In this document: positions 5,489 to 15,433 of the stretch, piece after piece
Position numbering within the stretch: the stretch's first letter is position 1
Layout: each line of letters opens with the position of its first letter
The notes under the pieces: generated by a model
Told to the model about the DNA's origin: nothing
Database searches by the model: none
The model's input: the letters and a program-made list of their open reading frames with translations, nothing else
Made by a program: the position numbers and the translations under genes
IMG/VR virus record: IMGVR_UViG_3300025133_006240
Span: 1-22,534 of that record
Origin: a virus
Strand: one strand, 5' to 3'
DNA length: 22,534 nt

Positions 5489-6718
5489 CTACGCCTCCGC
5501 GACGAGGATCCGGCCTCCGCCCTTCCGGGCCTGCTCCAGCCCCTTGGCCAGGATGCGCGCGCCGAACGCCTCCAGGTCCCGCTGCTTGATGAGGTCCTTC
5601 TCGTCCTGAGCCGCGAGGGTGATGGCGTCGACCAGGGACGCCAGCTTCTTGCCGGGGGTGACCGTCTCGTCCTGGAAGGCGTCCTTGGCCCGCTCCCGCT
5701 GGCCGGCGGTGAGGTCGTCGCCCCAGGCGTCCAGGAGGTCGAAGGCGTTGTCGATCCCGACCTCCGTGGCGGCCTTGTAGTTGTCGATCTGGCCGTTCGC
5801 CCGGACCCGAGCCGACTTGACCGCGTCCCCGATGCCGGCCTTGATCTTCTCCGCCCGGTCCTCCCCGCCCGTGTGGTTCCAGCGGTAGGACGTCCCCCCG
5901 TCCCCGTATCCGCCGAGCCCGTTGAGGCAGTGGGTGAAGTAGACCTTGTCGAGGACCCGGATGGCCGCGTTGCCGACCTCGCCGTTCCAGACCTCCAGCA
6001 TCGGGATGGGGAGGTTCAGCGTCGTGTCGTGGGACCCGGTGGGATTCTTGATCCTCCCGGTGAGCGGGTCGAACAGGATGGCGTCCTCCGGGTTGAGGAG
6101 GAGCCGGATCCGCATCAGATCGAGGGTGATGTGGGACTCGATGACGGGGAGGTCCCGCAGCTCCGGGGCGTCCAGGAACAGCTGGAGGACGTCCAGGTTG
6201 TCGATGACCGAGTAACCGCGTCCGCCGCCGGAGAGGACCGCCCGGATGGTGCGGAACTTCTGACCGGGGAGCTGGACGGTGCGGAGGAGGGAGGGGGCCT
6301 CCTGCCGCTGGAGGGCGTGGTTCCAGTTGACCTCGGCCAACTTCTGACCGTGCTCCCCCTGCTTCCGCTGATTCTCCAGGAACTTCGCCCCGCCCCCGCC
6401 GAGGACCTTGTATCCCATCTGGGAGAGGGCGGAGCCGGTGAAGCTCTCCGGGCTCTCCCAGGACCCGTCCGGGCGGCGGAAGGCCAACGCGGCCTTCCCG
6501 CCCTGGTAACGGAAGAAGCTCTGGTTGAGGGGGCGGTCCGTGTCCTGGGGGTCCAGGTCCGCGTGGATCTTGGCGACCGTCGAGTGGAGGTGATCGATGG
6601 ATCCGGGCTTGAGGGTGCCCCGCTCCTGCCTCTCGTCCAGGAGGGCTCGCGTGGTGAGGTAGGCGGGGGTGTCCTTGACGTCCAGGACCGTGGTGGGGGG
6701 GACGAGGTTTGCAGCCAT
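5489..6718 (-). CDS. DUF932-like phage protein (409 aa)
   Basis: The central segment RTIRAVLSGGGRGYSVIDNLDVLQ resembles the core of DUF932 phage/plasmid proteins, which share an R-x-LS-x(4)-Y-x(3)-DN pattern. The molecular function of that family is not established. N-terminal residues include a YQGGKAALAFRRPDGSW region. The C-terminal 120 residues are mainly helical and charged. ATG 6718 has the perfect leader GGAGAGAAGAAA. The gene appears to be its own transcription unit: a terminator lies upstream at 6926-6945 and a hairpin downstream at 5431-5467. Length is in the usual range for such proteins. Family call is moderate and function is unknown. Confidence 0.6.
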   Translation of the reverse strand: MAANLVPPTTVLDVKDTPAYLTTRALLDERQERGTLKPGSIDHLHSTVAKIHADLDPQDTDRPLNQSFFRYQGGKAALAFRRPDGSWESPESFTGSALSQMGYKVLGGGGAKFLENQRKQGEHGQKLAEVNWNHALQRQEAPSLLRTVQLPGQKFRTIRAVLSGGGRGYSVIDNLDVLQLFLDAPELRDLPVIESHITLDLMRIRLLLNPEDAILFDPLTGRIKNPTGSHDTTLNLPIPMLEVWNGEVGNAAIRVLDKVYFTHCLNGLGGYGDGGTSYRWNHTGGEDRAEKIKAGIGDAVKSARVRANGQIDNYKAATEVGIDNAFDLLDAWGDDLTAGQRERAKDAFQDETVTPGKKLASLVDAITLAAQDEKDLIKQRDLEAFGARILAKGLEQARKGGGRILVAEA

Positions 6719-6925
6719 TTTCTTCTCTCCGGTTTGGGCCTGAGCCCGGTGGGTTCCTCGCTGGGAGAAACCCAACGGGAGCGCCCAGCCTAGTACGAAA
6801 CGGGAGGGTATGGGAACGACGGGTAGAGGTTTTTTCTTGAGTAGTCCTGTCAGGTGCCCGCCACGTTGGAGGCCCCTGGTTTGCCGCTGGAGACGTCCGA
6901 GGGTCCCCAGCGGGGGAGTACACCC

Positions 6926-6945
6926 AAAAACCGCTCGGGCGGTTT
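6926..6945 (-). terminator. Rho-independent terminator on the minus strand
   Basis: On the minus strand AAACCGC-CCGA-GCGGTTT forms a perfect 7-bp stem with a 4-base loop, and the right arm runs into five consecutive T. This is the best intrinsic terminator in the window. It lies about 490 bases beyond the last gene of the replication operon (stop at 7437) and about 210 bases before the DUF932-like gene, so it separates the two. Confidence 0.7.
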
Positions 6946-7365
6946 CGCCTCTGCATACGACGTTCATGGTGGCGGCCCAGAGCCCCTGTCCCGGCGTGAG
7001 GTTTCTTCCGGCCTGGAGGGGGTCGTCTACGCCCCAGGAGGGCTGAACCGCCCGGAGCCCCTATCAGCCGACGCTGGCGGCTTCCTGCGGGGTGCGCGCG
7101 TGTCTGTCGGCCCGGAGGGGGTGGAAGGGCTCCAGGGCGGTTGTGGGTCGGTGGAAACGACTGATCACCGCGAAGCTCTGAGCCGACGCAGGAGGTGTTT
7201 TCACGGGCGAACCCTTCCGACCCCCCTATGTCGATTTTTGGAGGGCTCTGGCGTGGGCTCGTTTCCCGGCTCTCAGCGTGATTCTGAGCGGTTTTTGACC
7301 CCCTCAAGCTGTCCCCCTACCTAGAAACGGCAGGAAGGGAAAACCGCGCAAGTCGCCGGAAGTAA

Positions 7366-7380
7366 AGGGTTTTTCACCCT
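7366..7380 (-). terminator. Weak hairpin after the replication operon
   Basis: On the minus strand AGGGT-GAAAA-ACCCT is followed by TTACTT, about 57 bases after the stop at 7437. The stem is only 5 bp, so it could be a partial terminator; the stronger one is at 6926-6945. Confidence 0.3.
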
Positions 7381-7436
7381 CACCGATTTTCAAAAAGGGA
7401 CCGTTGCTGGTCTAGAAATTGGCTACCGACGCTGAA

Positions 7437-7940
7437 TCACGGCTTTTCGGATTCTGCGGACCGGGCGGCGAGGACGACCCGCAGGGCGGATTCTTGGTCC
7501 CGGAGGTCCTGGAGGAGGGCTCGGGTGCGGGGTCCATCCGGGATGTCTCCACCCGGCAGATCCAGGTAGGTGTCGGCCCACCTCTGCGCGGCGGAGTGCC
7601 AGATGGACGTGGGATCCGGGAGGCCCCCCTCGATGGTCTGGACCTTCTCGTTGGCGAGGAGGAACAGGTGGAGCGCGCGAGCCTTCCGGTGGAACGCGGC
7701 GAGCCTCCCCCATCGGATCGCGAGGGGCCTCTTGAGCCGGCCCTCCGACCAGACGAGGTCGGAGTTTCTGATGGGTTCCGGGGGGACGCTCAGACGGATC
7801 GTCCGGGCGTAGACCTTGGCAGCCCAGGAGGTCCACTCCGCCGGGGTGGGCTCCCTCCTCTCCGCCGCCGGCTCTCCCGACCGTCTGTAGGACACCAGCC
7901 GAAGCAGGAGGGCTCCGCCGGAGAGTTGGGGGTCCTTCAT
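7437..7940 (-). CDS. Hypothetical protein downstream of the helicase (167 aa)
   Basis: I do not recognise this protein. It starts MKDPQLSGGALLLRLVSY, is largely helical, and contains LAAFHRKARALHLFLLANEKV, the Trp-rich segment SIWHSAAQRWADTYLDLPGG, and a C-terminal helix ending RSAESEKP. ATG 7940 overlaps the helicase stop by 4 bases (ATGA), so it is translated from the same message and a replication accessory role is plausible. It is the last gene of that operon before the long noncoding stretch. Confidence 0.65.
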   Translation of the reverse strand: MKDPQLSGGALLLRLVSYRRSGEPAAERREPTPAEWTSWAAKVYARTIRLSVPPEPIRNSDLVWSEGRLKRPLAIRWGRLAAFHRKARALHLFLLANEKVQTIEGGLPDPTSIWHSAAQRWADTYLDLPGGDIPDGPRTRALLQDLRDQESALRVVLAARSAESEKP

Positions 7941-9271
7941 CGTCCGTCCGTCCAGGTGGGCGCTACGGGGCGCTGGGGGGCTTCGTAGTCCCGAAACCAG
8001 CCGTCGCCGGGTCGAAAGTGTGCCGGGATTGTGACGTGCGCGCGCCCGTTCCTCTGCTTCTCCAGGATGAGCTCAACCTTGTTGGGCTCCTTCGCCATCC
8101 GGTTGTAGGCGACCTCCCGGTAGACGAACAGGATGGAGTCCGCGTCCTGCTCCAGGGCTCCCGACTCCCGGAGGTCGGACGCGAGAGGTCGGCGGTCCTT
8201 CCGCGCGTCCACCCCCCGGTTCAGCTGGCTCAGGACGATCCCGCAGAGGCCGGAGGAGCCGCAGAGGGAGGAGAGGGCCTCGGAGGCGTTGGCGATCTCC
8301 TGCTCCCTGGAGTCCCTCCGGGGCAGGCGCATCTTCTGGAGGTAGTCCACGACGAAGGCGACAATGCCGTGGCGCGCGTGGGCGATGCGGATCGAGGAGA
8401 GCACCTCGGAGAGCGTCTTGGAGTGGTGATCCATCCAGAGCGGGACCCCCTCCCAGGAGGCCCTCGCCGTGTCCTCCCTCTCCTCGATGGAGCCCTCCCC
8501 CGCGACCGACGAGGAGTAGACCCGCTCGGCCAGGGAGTCCTCGCCCATCTCCACGCTGATGAACAGGACCGGGCCGTGCCTGTCCGCCATCCCCCGCGAG
8601 AGGGTGAGGGCCAGCTGCGTCTTTCCCATCCCCGGACGCGCCGCGATGAGCCCGTAGTGTCCGGGGTGGTACTTGAGGACCCGGTCCAGGGCGGGGAGCC
8701 CCGTCAACAGCTGGGGGTCCTTCTCCTCCCCCCGGCGGACCCTCCCCGCCCGGATGGTCGCCTTCTCCAGGAGCCGGGAGGCGGGGACAACCCCCTCCCC
8801 CCCGGAGGTCCGGGAGTGGACCTCCATCACCGCCCCCTCCAGGGCCTCCAGCATCTCCGCCGACGTCCCGCTTGCCTCGTGGATCGACTGCGTGAACGCG
8901 GTGGCTCGGAGGAGCGTCCGCCGCTTCCGGTACTCCCGGAGCGTATCCACGTAGACCTCCAGGTTGCCCCGCTTCGCCGGAACCCTGGAGAGGTTCCCGA
9001 CCGTGGCGGCGAGGAAGGAGAAATCCGGGAAGGGCCTCCCCGGTCCCAGGTTCCTCTCGTGGCGCTCCAGGACCGTCGCCTCGTCCGGCCCGGTCCCCCG
9101 CTGTCGGTCCAGGACCATCCCCGACCAGAAGGCCCGCATCGCGGATGATGAGAAGTCCTCCTCCAGTAGCCCCAGCGTGAGGGCCTCGTCTACGACTCCC
9201 GGATCCCGCAGCCCGAGCGCGACCACCGCGTGCTCAGACTGATCAGCTGTCTCTCGTCTCGTCCTCTCCAT
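7937..9271 (-). CDS. dnaB: DnaB-type replicative DNA helicase (444 aa)
   Basis: An N-terminal DnaB-N-like helical domain (residues about 10-130) is followed by the RecA-fold domain. Walker A ARPGMGKT is at 211-218, FISVEMGEDSLAER (237-250) matches the DnaB motif with the catalytic Glu, Walker B-like IVAFVVDYLQKM is at 303-314, and IVLSQLNRGVD is at 345-355. The arginine-rich end segment LILEKQRNGR is also present. It would unwind phage DNA as a hexameric ring, loaded by the initiator encoded two genes upstream. GGAGAGG lies 6 bases before ATG 9271. The coding region overlaps the upstream gene by 29 bases. Confidence 0.93.
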   Translation of the reverse strand: MERTRRETADQSEHAVVALGLRDPGVVDEALTLGLLEEDFSSSAMRAFWSGMVLDRQRGTGPDEATVLERHERNLGPGRPFPDFSFLAATVGNLSRVPAKRGNLEVYVDTLREYRKRRTLLRATAFTQSIHEASGTSAEMLEALEGAVMEVHSRTSGGEGVVPASRLLEKATIRAGRVRRGEEKDPQLLTGLPALDRVLKYHPGHYGLIAARPGMGKTQLALTLSRGMADRHGPVLFISVEMGEDSLAERVYSSSVAGEGSIEEREDTARASWEGVPLWMDHHSKTLSEVLSSIRIAHARHGIVAFVVDYLQKMRLPRRDSREQEIANASEALSSLCGSSGLCGIVLSQLNRGVDARKDRRPLASDLRESGALEQDADSILFVYREVAYNRMAKEPNKVELILEKQRNGRAHVTIPAHFRPGDGWFRDYEAPQRPVAPTWTDGR

Positions 9272-10977: not shown

Positions 10978-11144
10978 TTGGTCGTCTCCGGGCGTCCGTT
11001 TCTCCCGGACGCACTTTCCCGACCCTACCCGGTCCGACCCTTCTCTTGCCGTCTCTTACTCCTTTCTACGGTCCCTTGACCTTTTGACCCTTCCCGTTGC
11101 AGTCTGTCCCCCCCGGAGGGTTCCGGGACCAACCAGGAGACTCG
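10978..11144. promoter_or_regulatory. Divergent control region between the left and right gene blocks
   Basis: The 167 bases between the HTH gene and the ParB-like gene must hold the start signals of both blocks, unless long read-through occurs. It contains a perfect 7-bp hairpin (GCGTCCG / CGGACGC, 10992-11012) close to the leftward start, two TTGACC direct repeats 8 bases apart (11076 and 11084), and the shared inverted repeat at 11110-11127. I cannot find a convincing -35/-10 pair, so the promoters may not be of the standard sigma-70 type. Confidence 0.5.
11110..11127. repeat. Shared leader inverted repeat, copy 2
   Basis: This 18-base element is identical to 5341-5358, with a CCCGGA-GGGT-TCCGGG core. 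It lies 18-35 bases upstream of ATG 11145, just before the AGGAGA ribosome site of the first rightward gene. Confidence 0.6.
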
Positions 11145-11780
11145 ATGAACGATCGGCAGGGTGAAGGTGAAGTGGCGGCGGTGTGGGTGGGGATCGGGGA
11201 TCTCGTCCCCTGGGCGGACAACCCCCGGATCAACTCGGACGCTGTTGCCGCCGTCGTGGAGAGCATCCGGCGGTTTGGCTTCTCCTCCCCGATCATCGCC
11301 AGGACGGCGGACTCTCAGGTCATCGCCGGCCACACCCGGCTTGAGGCCGCGAGGACCCTCGGGCTGGAAAAGGTCCCAGTGCGCTTCCTCGACCTCGATC
11401 CGGCAGACGCGAAGCTCCTCGCCGTCGCGGACAACCGCCTCGGGGAGGTTGCGGAGTGGGACGAGGAGGGGCTGGCAGGGATCCTCAAGGGGCTTTACAA
11501 CGAGGGACTCGTCCTGGACATCGGTGTCGCCGGCTTCACCGAGGCGGACCTGGAGGGCCTGTTCACCGCGCAGTTCGACCTCGACGTCGAGGACGTCCCC
11601 GACCCCTTCGCGGTCCCTCCTGCGGCGGACGAGGCTGTCTCCTTCACCTTCGGGGAGTACCGGGGCAGGGTGGACCGGGCGGTCTACCTCCACTTCACCG
11701 CCGAGTACGAGAAGCAGAAGGCTGCGGGGGACTCCCCGCCGATGCTCTCAGACGTGCTCAAGGGGTGGCTCGGTGTCTAA
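11145..11780 (+). CDS. ParB-like N-terminal domain protein (211 aa)
   Basis: Residues about 12-100 match the ParB/Spo0J N-terminal fold: VGIGDLVPWADNPRIN, then IRRFGFSSPIIARTADSQVIAGHTRLEAARTLGLEKVPVRFLDLD, with the diagnostic GHTRLEAA box at 62-69. The C-terminal half is acidic (DLDVEDVPDPFAVP) and unlike chromosomal ParB; there is no ParA gene nearby. Such stand-alone ParB-domain proteins are common in phages, next to or fused with DNA methyltransferases, as here. Partitioning is therefore less likely than a DNA-modification or regulatory role. AGGAGA lies just before ATG 11145. It is the first gene of the rightward block and overlaps the next gene by 8 bases. Confidence 0.85.
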   Translation: MNDRQGEGEVAAVWVGIGDLVPWADNPRINSDAVAAVVESIRRFGFSSPIIARTADSQVIAGHTRLEAARTLGLEKVPVRFLDLDPADAKLLAVADNRLGEVAEWDEEGLAGILKGLYNEGLVLDIGVAGFTEADLEGLFTAQFDLDVEDVPDPFAVPPAADEAVSFTFGEYRGRVDRAVYLHFTAEYEKQKAAGDSPPMLSDVLKGWLGV

Positions 11781-12726
11781 GAAAGCCCCCATCAGGGACC
11801 GCGTCGAAGCCTCTCAGAAGAAGCGGGCCGCGATGGTCGCCCGCCTCGGCTGCGTCCCCCACTCCGTCCTGAAGCTCAACCGGGGAGCCCTCTCCCGCTC
11901 GATGTTCTGCTACCAGCAGGAGCGCCCCGACCGCCGGGGAGGAACCGCCGCCTACACCGCCTCCATCGCCAACTACGGGAGCGAGGAGTCCGAGGAGGCC
12001 CAGCGCATCCGGGAGAAGGAGAAGATCGCGGGTGCCGGTTACTCCCGGAACCCGTCGAAGGACCGGATGGCGGCCAGCATCATGGCGGCGGAGCTGGTCG
12101 ACTTCTTCGCCCGGTACTACTCAGCCCCCGGAGAGGTCTACGTCGACCCCTTCATGGGCCAGGGCGTCCAACTCCAGGTGGCGTGGCTCCTCGGGATCCA
12201 CTACCGAGGGATGGACCTTTCGGAGGACTTCTTCGCCTACATCGAGGCAGTCCGCGACCGCCTCCTCGCCATCGCCCCGGACCGGAAGGACCCCCCGGAG
12301 GCACTGGTGCTCAACGGTGACTCCCGCTTCCTGGAGGGTATCCCGGACGGGGAGGGGGACTTCTGCTTCACGTCCCCCCCGTACTGGGACATCGAGTGGT
12401 ACGGGTCGGAGGAGGAGCAGTTGGGGACGGGTCAGACCTATGAGGACTTCCTCGCCGGCATGGAGGAGGTCGCCGTCGCCCTCCGGCGGAAGATGAAACC
12501 CGGAGCCTTCGCCGTGATCAACGTCAACGACTTCCGCCGGGGTGGCGACTTCTACCCCTATCACGCGGACACCATCTCCCTCTTCCGGCGGGCTGGCTGG
12601 AAGGTCCACGACATCTGGATCATCGAGGGACTCATCGGGGGCCTCCCCAAGGTGTTCGGCGTGAAGTCGAACACCGCCCGCATCGCCCCGAAGGTCCACG
12701 AGTACGGGCTGGTGTTCCGGGCATGA
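11773..12726 (+). CDS. SAM-dependent DNA adenine/cytosine-N4 methyltransferase (317 aa)
   Basis: The SAM-binding motif I VDPFMGQG is at 124-131, an acidic loop follows at GMDLS (146-150), NGDS is at 181-184, and the catalytic motif IV TSPPYW is at 200-205. The SPPY type signals N6-adenine or N4-cytosine methylation. The order, motif I before motif IV, is not the beta-class order common in small restriction-type enzymes. The N-terminal 95 residues (CYQQERPDRRGGTAAYT and on) form an extra domain that may recognise DNA. The start GTG 11773 lies inside the end of the ParB-like gene. The protein probably protects phage DNA from host restriction or marks it for packaging. No restriction enzyme gene accompanies it. 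Confidence 0.85.
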   Translation: MSKKAPIRDRVEASQKKRAAMVARLGCVPHSVLKLNRGALSRSMFCYQQERPDRRGGTAAYTASIANYGSEESEEAQRIREKEKIAGAGYSRNPSKDRMAASIMAAELVDFFARYYSAPGEVYVDPFMGQGVQLQVAWLLGIHYRGMDLSEDFFAYIEAVRDRLLAIAPDRKDPPEALVLNGDSRFLEGIPDGEGDFCFTSPPYWDIEWYGSEEEQLGTGQTYEDFLAGMEEVAVALRRKMKPGAFAVINVNDFRRGGDFYPYHADTISLFRRAGWKVHDIWIIEGLIGGLPKVFGVKSNTARIAPKVHEYGLVFRA

Positions 12727-13043
12727 TGGACCCTGCCGTGCACCACGCCCTCCTCGTCGCCAGGGGGGACTTCACGGACCCGGACGCCTCTTGGCTCGCC
12801 TTCCTCCAGGCGGTCCGAGACACCGGGCTGACGGTCCTCCAGACGGGTTTCCACTTGTTCCCTGGTGGGGGCTTCACTGGGATGGTCCTTCTCGCTGAGT
12901 CCCACGCTGCCGTCCACACATGGCCCGAACAGGGGCTCGCCTGGGTGGAGCTGCTCTCCTGCGGTGAGGCTGACGGCCCAGCCCGGTTCGCTCGCGGCCT
13001 TCTAGAGCACCACTTCGCCCGCTCCCTGGAGCCCGCGAAGTGA
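12723..13043 (+). CDS. speD: S-adenosylmethionine decarboxylase homologue (SpeD-like, 106 aa)
   Basis: The segment FHLFPGGGFTGMVLLAESH followed by AAVHTWPEQGLAWVELLSCG is the diagnostic core of class 1b AdoMet decarboxylase. Ser60 (in ESH, the residue that self-cleaves to form the pyruvoyl cofactor), His65 and Cys80 are all present, with the same 5- and 15-residue spacings as Ser63, His68 and Cys83 of the Thermotoga enzyme. At 106 residues it is slightly shorter than usual, mostly at the termini. The reaction would be SAM to decarboxylated SAM, the aminopropyl donor for spermidine. No spermidine synthase is seen here. The gene overlaps the methyltransferase (ATGA) and RusA (GTGA) genes. Some SpeD homologues have changed substrate, so activity on SAM is not certain. 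Confidence 0.88.
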   Translation: MMDPAVHHALLVARGDFTDPDASWLAFLQAVRDTGLTVLQTGFHLFPGGGFTGMVLLAESHAAVHTWPEQGLAWVELLSCGEADGPARFARGLLEHHFARSLEPAK

Positions 13044-13537
13044 CGTCGTTTCGGGCGACCCTCCCGGTGGCTCCCAGGGGGAAGGAGCGACCGAGGGCCT
13101 CCATCCCCTGGCCCTGGATCGAGAAGTGGCTCCGCTCCGGGAGGCGGGGGAGGAGGCCGATCCCCCACGTCTACACCCGGAAGGAGTACCAACTCTATGA
13201 GGAGGGCCTCGCTGACCGGCTTGCTGCCGCCTGGGGAGCCGCTGGACGCTTTGCGCCCCTCGATGAGCCCTGCTCCCTCCTCCTCGTCTGCTTCTTCCCG
13301 CGTCCGTCCTCCAGGACCCGCAAGACGCTCCCAAATCCCGCCTACCCACACACCGTCCGCCCGGACGGGGACAACGTCGCCAAGGCGGTCCAGGACGCTC
13401 TCCAGAAGGCGGGGTGCGTGGTAGACGATTCTCGCGTCTTTGACCTCCGGGTGGTCAAGTGGGTCTGCTCCGGGGGGGAGATGCCTCGGATCGAGGTGGT
13501 CCTCCGGTGGGGCGTTGGGGTTACCCTCCTTCGGTGA
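13040..13537 (+). CDS. rusA: RusA-type Holliday junction resolvase (165 aa)
   Basis: The RusA signature is clear: RPDGDNVAKAVQDALQKAG followed by CVVDDSRV, with the acidic residues Asp109, Asp111, Asp119 and Asp129/130 expected to bind metal. The N-terminal PVAPRGKERPRAS segment is also typical. The enzyme would cut branched DNA left by replication and recombination before packaging. The GTG start at 13040 overlaps the SpeD stop. An extra basic insert (RSGRRGRRP, residues 32-40) follows the N-terminal strand. It lies between the SAM-related genes and the terminase, where debranching nucleases are often found in phages. Confidence 0.88.
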   Translation: MTSFRATLPVAPRGKERPRASIPWPWIEKWLRSGRRGRRPIPHVYTRKEYQLYEEGLADRLAAAWGAAGRFAPLDEPCSLLLVCFFPRPSSRTRKTLPNPAYPHTVRPDGDNVAKAVQDALQKAGCVVDDSRVFDLRVVKWVCSGGEMPRIEVVLRWGVGVTLLR

Positions 13538-13568: not shown

Positions 13569-14003
13569 TTGACGACCAAGGCTGAACGTGAGCGGAGGCT
13601 GGCGATCGTGGAGCAGGCGATCCACCGCCACGGGTGGTCGATGCAGATCGAGAAGGCCCTCGCGGACCAATTCGGGGTCACGGCCAGGGCTGTCCGCACC
13701 TATCGGAGGGAGGTCGAACAGTTGACCCGGAAGGAGATGGACCGGGACCGCCGGATGGTTCGGGCCTCCCTCCTGGTGCGCATCCGGGGGCACCAAGCGG
13801 CGGCCCGGTCCGGGGGGAAGTTTGGCCCCCTCGCCGCCATGCTCGGGCTGGAGGCCCGAATCACCGGGGTTATGGAGCCGGAGCCGGAGCTGGTCCCGGA
13901 CAACCTGGAGGCGGTGTCCAACGAGGACCTCCTCGTTGAGCTTAACCGTGATCTGACCGACGCCGACGTCGAGGCCCTCCTCCGCCTTCGGGGGAAGAAG
14001 TGA
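13569..14003 (+). CDS. Terminase small subunit candidate (144 aa)
   Basis: An N-terminal helix-turn-helix (IEKALADQFGVTARAVRTYRREV, residues about 26-50) is followed by a helical region and an acidic C-terminus (LVELNRDLTDADVEALLRLRG). Size, HTH and position directly before the large subunit fit a TerS, which recognises the packaging site. The start is a TTG at 13569, supported by GGAGAG about 6 bases upstream; an ATG at 13556 is out of frame. It overlaps the large subunit gene by 4 bases. Call rests on context more than on sequence family. Confidence 0.7.
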   Translation: MTTKAERERRLAIVEQAIHRHGWSMQIEKALADQFGVTARAVRTYRREVEQLTRKEMDRDRRMVRASLLVRIRGHQAAARSGGKFGPLAAMLGLEARITGVMEPEPELVPDNLEAVSNEDLLVELNRDLTDADVEALLRLRGKK

Positions 14004-15433
14004 GCCGGCTCGGGGCGGTCCGCCGGCTCCGGGCGAATCCAGCAATGTCCCTCGCCCGGTATAGGCCTGGGCCGGTCCATCTCGCCTTCCACGAGGACAG
14101 CGGCCGCATCCGTCTCCTCCGGGGGCCAAACCAGTCGGGCAAGACGGAAGCGGGATGCAAGGAGTCCGCTGACCGTTGCCTCGGGCGGGGCAAGTGGCAA
14201 GCGGTGAAGCCTCCCCCCGTCCGGGGTCGGGTGGTCTGCCACTCCTTCAAACAGAGCTTGGTGATCCAGCGGAAGCTCTGGATGAGCATCCCGAAGGGAG
14301 AGTTGGACCCCCGGACTCGGTTCGACCGGGTCCTCGGCTTCCGGCACGGTTGGATCGGCTTCCGCAACGGGTCTGAAATGCGGGTCGTCACCGTGGGTCA
14401 GGACATTCTCGCCCACGCCTCTGAGACGCTCGACTTCATCTGGATTGATGAACCGCCCACCCCGGAGGTCTACGCCGAGTGCGTCTCCCGGACCATCCAG
14501 ACCGCCGGGGTGATCTTCCTGACGCTCACCCCCATCGGGCGTCCGGTGAAGTGGCTGTGGGACCTCGTCCTCGGGAACCTCCCGGAGGAGTTGGAGGGGC
14601 TGGAGGACTTCGCTGGCGACGTTGCCCACACCGTCTCGGAGCACCACTACACGTTGTCGGTGGCGCACTGTCCCTGGATGACCGAGGCCCAGGTCCGGGA
14701 GGCGATCTCGGCGGTCCCCTTCTACGACCGACCGCAGCGGATCCTCGCCGCATGGGAGGGCCTCACGGTCGGGCGCTGCTTCTCCGCCTTCTCCCCCGCG
14801 AACATCGGCCCCGCTGGCCGCTCTCCGTTGGAGGGCTGGGCAACGGACTCTCCTGTCAAGATCGTCCTCGGCGGGGACCACGGGGAGAAGGCTGCGCACA
14901 GCTTCTGGCTCCTCGTCGCATACCAGTTGGACCGGAGGGGCGTCGGGCTCCCGAGGGTTCGGATGAGGGTCCTCGGGGAGTACGCCAACGTCGCCGGGGC
15001 GGACGACTATGAGGACGCCTCTGCGATCAAGGCAATGACCGAGGAGAGGGGCCTCCGCCTGGACGCTGTGGACTTCGGTGTCGGGGATATCAACACCGCC
15101 GGAAAGTCACGCGGCGGCCGGAAGTTGAACGACCTGATGACGGAGCACTTCGCCGTCCTGATGGGCCTCCCTCCGGGGGCTCCCTCGTTCGTGGTCCGGT
15201 CCGCCTGGAAGGGCTCCGGGTCCGTTGACTACGGGCTCCGGCTGACCAATAACCAATTCCGGCGCACGGACCTGGAGGTCGACCCGGAGTGCGAGTTGAT
15301 GATCGAGACGTGCCGCCACTGGACGGGTGAGTCCTCGGGCAAACTGGTTCACCGGGCGGACACTCTCCGCTACATCGTGACTGAAATAATGCGGGAGGAG
15401 GACGCGAGCATGGTCCTGCCCCACGCGAGCTGA
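14000..15433 (+). CDS. terL: Terminase large subunit, DNA-packaging motor (477 aa)
   Basis: The ATPase domain has Walker A GPNQSGKT at 42-49 and Walker B LDFIWIDEPP at about 143-152, followed by the FLTLTPIGR coupling motif. The C-terminal RNase H-like nuclease half shows KIVLGGDHGEKAAHSF (about 288-303, first Asp) and VDFGVGDINTAG (about 356-367), with a late acidic RADTLRYI segment. It pumps DNA into the prohead through the portal and cuts concatemers. The start is GTG 14000, overlapping the small-subunit stop. The length is typical. Confidence 0.93.
   Translation: MSRLGAVRRLRANPAMSLARYRPGPVHLAFHEDSGRIRLLRGPNQSGKTEAGCKESADRCLGRGKWQAVKPPPVRGRVVCHSFKQSLVIQRKLWMSIPKGELDPRTRFDRVLGFRHGWIGFRNGSEMRVVTVGQDILAHASETLDFIWIDEPPTPEVYAECVSRTIQTAGVIFLTLTPIGRPVKWLWDLVLGNLPEELEGLEDFAGDVAHTVSEHHYTLSVAHCPWMTEAQVREAISAVPFYDRPQRILAAWEGLTVGRCFSAFSPANIGPAGRSPLEGWATDSPVKIVLGGDHGEKAAHSFWLLVAYQLDRRGVGLPRVRMRVLGEYANVAGADDYEDASAIKAMTEERGLRLDAVDFGVGDINTAGKSRGGRKLNDLMTEHFAVLMGLPPGAPSFVVRSAWKGSGSVDYGLRLTNNQFRRTDLEVDPECELMIETCRHWTGESSGKLVHRADTLRYIVTEIMREEDASMVLPHAS

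Follow-up and report, generated by a model that had tools for sequence, protein, structure and literature searches.

A phage SpeD gene adjoining a motif I-altered DNA methyltransferase homologue as a candidate module for DNA aminopropylation

Background

The closest described system is the SpeD/SpeE pair of polyamine synthesis, in which SpeD makes decarboxylated SAM (dcSAM) for a partner transferase and motif I positions 0 and +3 of the partner track the use of dcSAM. Spermidine synthase uses dcSAM as cofactor and putrescine N-methyltransferase uses SAM; residue D103 in the GGGDGG loop of spermidine synthase binds the dcSAM amine and presumably repels the carboxylate of SAM, and the substitutions D103I, Q79T and V106T together turn the enzyme into a SAM-dependent methyltransferase (PMC3725402). 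A second related group are the phage ParB-domain DNA methyltransferases (MTases; phrog_498, phrog_12517; PF01555), which have a [ST][CS]PPY motif IV and are often located near the terminase genes. In amino-methyltransferases of such kind motif I (FxGxG) is the site at which the methyl donor binds (PMC6787082). Moreover, the SpeD of Croceibacter phage P2559S restores spermidine in an E. coli speD mutant and is a bona fide AdoMet decarboxylase (AdoMetDC), and a methyltransferase is never mentioned in the main text of that study (PMC9992855). In the open-licence literature, no description of a SpeD-MTase module and no prior report of decarboxylated SAM or aminopropyl groups in connection with phage DNA modification were found.

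Here, a SpeD homologue encoded by a virus fragment from IMG/VR was analysed together with its neighbouring genes and its relatives in other phages. The window, i.e. the whole stretch of DNA that was analysed, comprises the complete record of 22,534 bases with a GC content of 67.7%.

Materials and methods

Scans of IMG/VR with the SpeD or the MTase of the window as single proteins gave almost no matches, and scans with alignments and motifs were needed to recover the relatives. MTases with the motif I FAGD[ST]VFG were collected by a DNA-pattern scan that was blind to SpeD and by an alignment scan seeded with three SpeD-linked MTases. The viral pattern-scan counts for the FAGD and FAGGSVRGIVA motifs are samples, taken among the matches listed. 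For the clade of the window, 30 loci were obtained by an alignment scan with Y[VL]DPFMG and SPPYWDI, patterns that include neither position +3 nor SpeD. The search for SpeE (PF01564) was extended to 28 MTase-bearing phage records containing either the module or a relative, one of which (the record of L361) belongs to an Arg-type phage. GenBank entry MT839461 (L003, 'Bacteriophage sp.') was considered as a source of a close phage SpeD and was dropped, as its ORF is longer, with SpeD at the C-terminus, and probably bacterial.

The input alignments for AlphaFold were assembled without rows from GenBank phage records. The trees of the MTases were built with motif I masked. The T. maritima row of the SpeD tree agrees with the aligned PDB stretch.

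Results

The SpeD homologue of the window

The gene at 12723-13043 (+) codes for a protein of 106 aa that is a genuine SAM decarboxylase homologue of class 1b with predicted activity. The protein matches the Pfam family AdoMet_dc (PF02675; E 5.8e-18, 65.6 bits, cut-off 25), three PHROGs annotated as SAM decarboxylase and the solved SpeD structures 1tlu, 1vr7 and 2iii from T. maritima and A. aeolicus (about 2e-12). With TIGR03330 it reaches 61.6 bits and stays below the equivalog cut-off of 75.65, so that it is best termed a homologue outside that equivalog. The putative catalytic residues are Ser60 (12900-12902), which aligns with S63 of T. maritima and is the predicted self-cleavage and pyruvoyl residue with the cut after Glu59, His65 (12915-12917), a predicted processing and catalysis residue, and Cys80 (12960-12962), predicted to be catalytic. 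None of the three varies in an alignment of 23 divergent relatives. A preliminary description of the locus, made from the sequence alone, had placed the ORF and the triad exactly here, and the superposition on the Thermotoga AdoMetDC that it had proposed agreed with this assignment: the AlphaFold model (pLDDT 96.2) was matched by Foldseek to T. maritima SpeD (1vr7) with a TM score of 0.84-0.86. Domain, fold and Ser/His/Cys residues of a class 1b SpeD are consequently all present. Maturation to a pyruvoyl enzyme, likewise anticipated there, is predicted from the invariant triad, the intact fold and the ability of the paired P2559S SpeD to restore spermidine synthesis. The supposed truncation of the N-terminus was overstated, since only about three residues are missing relative to T. 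maritima (S60 vs S63); the difference in length (106 vs 130 aa) is mainly C-terminal, and this shortness is common to the SpeD of P2559S and other MTase-linked phage SpeDs.

Operon and methyltransferase-like partner

Four genes on the plus strand overlap head to tail and code for a ParB-like protein, an MTase, SpeD and RusA. The operon starts with the ParB-like protein (11097-11780; 227 aa; PF02195, 3.1e-7; phrog_620, 6.6e-35), followed by a DNA amino-methyltransferase-like enzyme with a GTG start (11773-12726; 317 aa; PF01555, 2.1e-13; phrog_12517). The MTase gene shares 8 bp with the ParB gene and 4 bp (ATGA) with speD, whose start lies within the MTase stop codon, and a further 4 bp (GTGA) are common to the end of speD and the start of the RusA-like Holliday junction resolvase gene (13040-13537; PF05866, 6e-16). 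A presumed small terminase gene and the gene of the terminase large subunit (14000-15433, +; PF03237, 1.2e-4; phrog_2, 7e-7), representing the packaging region, are located 3' of RusA. No match to SpeE (PF01564) was found in the 22.5-kb record; hence the spermidine synthase partner of the SpeD/SpeE pathway is missing from the window, as had been noted before. SpeE was also absent from the 28 MTase-bearing phage records, nearly all of which have a paired SpeD. The preliminary statement that there is no partner gene therefore holds for polyamine genes and fails for the overlapping DNA methyltransferase gene, which is the partner by position.

The MTase has the PF01555 domain, an FxGxG motif I (DPFMGQGVQLQVA, 12145-12183, +) and, according to the alignments, the catalytic motif IV TSPPY (12370-12384, +). 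Motif I precedes motif IV, an order permuted relative to 2zie, the best solved relative. The AlphaFold model (pLDDT 80.8) has a class I MTase fold, and Foldseek returned generic class I methyltransferases only, a result uninformative on the cofactor. By motif alignment, D103 and V106 of spermidine synthase map to MTase positions 0 and +3, which are Gly/Arg in ordinary ParB-MTases, Asp/Phe in the FAGD types and Gln/Gln in the clade of the window. The window enzyme thus lies outside the FAGD class, with Gln130 at position 0 and Gln133 (12169-12171) at +3 in place of the Arg of SAM-using ParB-MTases. The aminopropyltransferase-like combination of Asp at 0 and a hydrophobic residue at +3 is found in the FAGD[ST]VFG class and not in the window, whose signature is weaker: with Gln at both positions, that at +3 being polar, it falls short of the full spermidine synthase-like signature. 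By analogy, Asp/Phe of the FAGD type would be the pattern expected for dcSAM, and the clade of the window would represent loss of the Arg only.

Coupling of SpeD to FAGD-type methyltransferases

The overlap of MTase and speD genes recurs in Pseudomonas phage ZRG1, in an IMG/VR contig (L004) and in Croceibacter phage P2559S, whose MTases all have the motif I FAGD[ST]VFG. P2559S resembles the window in its 106-aa SpeD, the catalytic triad and the overlap with the upstream MTase gene, and differs in having an MTase of the FAGDTVFG class. Among the matches listed, SpeD lies directly downstream of FAGD[ST]VFG MTases in 92 of 96 testable deduplicated contexts (92 with SpeD, 4 without and a further 7 without room); for the loci of the pattern scan alone the count is 82 of 86 testable MTases, again among the matches listed. 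All nine FAGD-type MTases (9/9) on contigs of bacterial and archaeal genomes are followed by SpeD. Ordinary ParB-MTases with FAGGSVRGIVA had SpeD downstream in 0 of 106 cases with room, among the matches listed, and the ParB-MTase of Pseudanabaena phage Pam4 (FAGGSVRG) has no SpeD nearby. SpeDs in GenBank phages are mostly cyanophage genes and did not adjoin an MTase in the regions read, which indicates that the linkage is no general property of phage SpeDs.

The records of five FAGD-type MTases (L028, L033, L036, L074, L135) contain no SpeD; these enzymes are possibly fed by a host SpeD or represent ongoing loss. For them, as for the Gln-type MTase L352 described below, SpeD may be dispensable or supplied by the host.

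Several unusual arrangements were observed in individual records. In Pam4 (L008, 3006-5495) a PLP-dependent (PALP) domain is inserted between motifs I and IV of the ParB-MTase. In Bacillus phage vB_BcoS-136 (L005, 3755-4828) SpeD is flanked within one ORF of 357 aa by uncharacterised N-terminal and C-terminal regions, and the Klebsiella plasmid pINF237_02 (L436, 3001-3369) carries a lone speD with no polyamine gene annotated nearby.

Covariation of motif I and SpeD in the clade of the window

A search with the pattern SPPYWDIEWY gave two contigs with MTases 54-55% identical to that of the window. One has a SpeD 46% identical to the window SpeD downstream of the MTase, and in the other a tandem pair of such MTases is followed by a SpeD with 50% identity. 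Among the clade loci, position +3 was Gln in 10 SpeD-linked members (10/10) and one unlinked member, and Arg in no linked and 15 unlinked members; besides the Gln exception, located on a 4.3-kb contig (L352), the unlinked Arg/Gln relatives thus have Arg in 15/15 cases. A further unlinked relative (L370) belongs to neither the Arg nor the Gln class. Position +3 is the only column of the catalytic domain that fully divides linked from unlinked members. The motif I of L344 (DPFMGQGVRLQVA) differs from that of the window (DPFMGQGVQLQVA) solely by Arg at +3, and L344 has no SpeD. No SpeD was detected across 30 whole records, of which 28 were checked as Arg-type, including that of Microcystis phage Mae-JY30 (source of L009), and one is that of the Gln exception L352.

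In the non-redundant set overall, among the matches listed, SpeD was linked to 0 of 121 MTases with Arg at +3, and MTases with Asp or Gln at position 0 and a non-Arg residue at +3 were linked in 137 and unlinked in 6 cases. The Fisher value for this table of motif I and SpeD is 9e-69, computed ignoring relatedness and among the matches listed.

Some relatives show deviating motifs. In one contig (L339; G001:C1:12000-26000, 5996-8630, minus strand) tandem window-like MTases are located upstream of SpeD, and one of them has HSPPY for TSPPY as motif IV. In four related MTases (L051, L054, L055, L061) motif I is shortened to FSGG-AFGF or FSRG-AFGF; they come without SpeD and possibly represent a third cofactor variant. 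The second MTase of contig L191 (3257-4720, minus strand) has the motif I NPFGGGVQMG.

Phylogenetic analysis

The window belongs to a well supported clade of 13 rows (100/99), in which the Arg members lack SpeD. Independent contrasts between Arg and non-Arg MTases number three on supported branches and five on all branches. SpeD accompanies the non-Arg state in about 2.8-2.9 of the three supported contrasts and the opposite direction never occurs; the independent switches are too few for a sign test to reach 0.05, so that the case rests on the combination of evidence. In the SpeD tree, the majority of window-like SpeDs join the polyamine-type SpeDs, among them that of T. maritima, apart from the FAGD-linked SpeDs (80/89), and this separation suggests two recruitments of SpeD to MTases.

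Discussion

SpeD is fixed directly 3' of one DNA methyltransferase class and does not follow the close relatives of that class, which argues for a supply of dcSAM to the neighbouring enzyme. The two proteins very probably work together, and the transferase probably uses dcSAM. In the proposed module, composed of the ParB-like protein, the transferase and SpeD, the latter would be the cofactor-supplying half of a phage DNA modification system: SpeD would process itself to a pyruvoyl enzyme and decarboxylate SAM to dcSAM. The neighbouring enzyme has lost the Arg at +3 that SAM-using relatives keep. We take this Arg to bind the carboxylate of SAM, by homology with spermidine synthase rather than from a structure of the MTase family, and its loss would allow decarboxylated SAM to be bound. 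A 3-aminopropyl group in place of methyl would then be transferred to an exocyclic amino group of the DNA, at N6 of adenine or N4 of cytosine, and the positively charged adduct may make the phage DNA resistant to restriction and offset part of its charge for packaging. That SpeD feeds dcSAM to the adjacent enzyme and that this enzyme aminopropylates phage DNA bases is the reading we favour with some reservation; that such aminopropylation is a widespread new class of DNA modification, built from SpeD and a motif I-switched former methyltransferase with at least two origins, we favour only slightly.

This module would differ from the SpeD/SpeE pair in its partner, a ParB-linked DNA amino-methyltransferase homologue with DNA instead of putrescine as proposed acceptor, and in the lack of SpeE in the MTase-SpeD phage records searched. 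With the phage ParB-domain DNA methyltransferases it shares the homologous catalytic domain, whereas in the SpeD-linked members the Arg of motif I is lost and speD follows immediately. In the switch between putrescine N-methyltransferase and spermidine synthase the same two motif I positions help to decide between SAM and dcSAM, with the opposite evolutionary direction and a small-molecule acceptor (PMC3725402).

The coupling and the motif I covariation would suit any use of dcSAM by the MTase, and the acceptor enzyme is itself homologous to methyltransferases. dcSAM might accordingly serve as an unusual methyl donor or tune the neighbouring MTase, the product being ordinary N4/N6 methylation. 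We regard this as unlikely, since close relatives methylate without SpeD and an additional gene leading to an identical product would bring no clear benefit; moreover, the Asp and hydrophobic pair of the FAGD class matches an aminopropyltransferase. The three purposes named in the preliminary description, i.e. feeding the host SpeE, depleting SAM or acting on a new substrate, do not account for the coupling of SpeD and MTase. As an auxiliary polyamine gene, SpeD would boost dcSAM for the host spermidine synthase and thereby provide spermidine for DNA packing or translation, a role put forward for other phage SpeDs. Phage SpeDs are indeed often found without SpeE, several of them being true AdoMetDCs (PMC9992855), but it would be left unexplained why SpeD adjoins one MTase class so tightly and is missing beside Arg-type MTases, and why motif I covaries with it, which makes this role quite improbable. 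We give equally little credence to a neofunctionalised SpeD (SpeDA/SpeDC) that acts on arginine or ornithine and yields a diamine used as polyamine or added to DNA. Such phage enzymes exist (PMC9992855, PMC10407285), the SpeDC ornithine decarboxylase being marked by the four diagnostic residues Gln, Thr, Phe and Tyr (PMC10407285), and the score of the window SpeD below the TIGR03330 cut-off would be in line with them; however, the assayed paired SpeD of P2559S, which accompanies a FAGDTVFG MTase, is a genuine AdoMetDC, the window-like SpeDs cluster with those of polyamine type, T. maritima SpeD included, and the covariation concerns a SAM-binding site. Depletion of SAM in the manner of the T3 SAMase, by which host methylation or SAM-dependent restriction would be blocked while the MTase protects the phage DNA, is very improbable: SpeD does consume SAM and phage SAM-degrading enzymes are known (PMC7877911), but a SAM-destroying enzyme beside an MTase that needs SAM would be self-defeating and the Arg loss would have no reason.

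If aminopropylation of DNA by the SpeD-linked MTases is true, many 'orphan' phage speD genes would be explained, a cationic alkyl-amine would join the known DNA modifications and phages would gain a route past restriction. Furthermore, an enzyme that equips DNA with a chemically reactive primary amine would be at hand, and the module would represent an evolutionary cofactor switch by one or two residues combined with the capture of a cofactor-making gene. Cultured phages with the pair are P2559S (gp66-gp67) and ZRG1, for both of which the complete genome has been sequenced. In ZRG1, a putative nucleotide modification gene of the Nmad5 family (L002, 12044-12643) is located near the MTase-SpeD pair.
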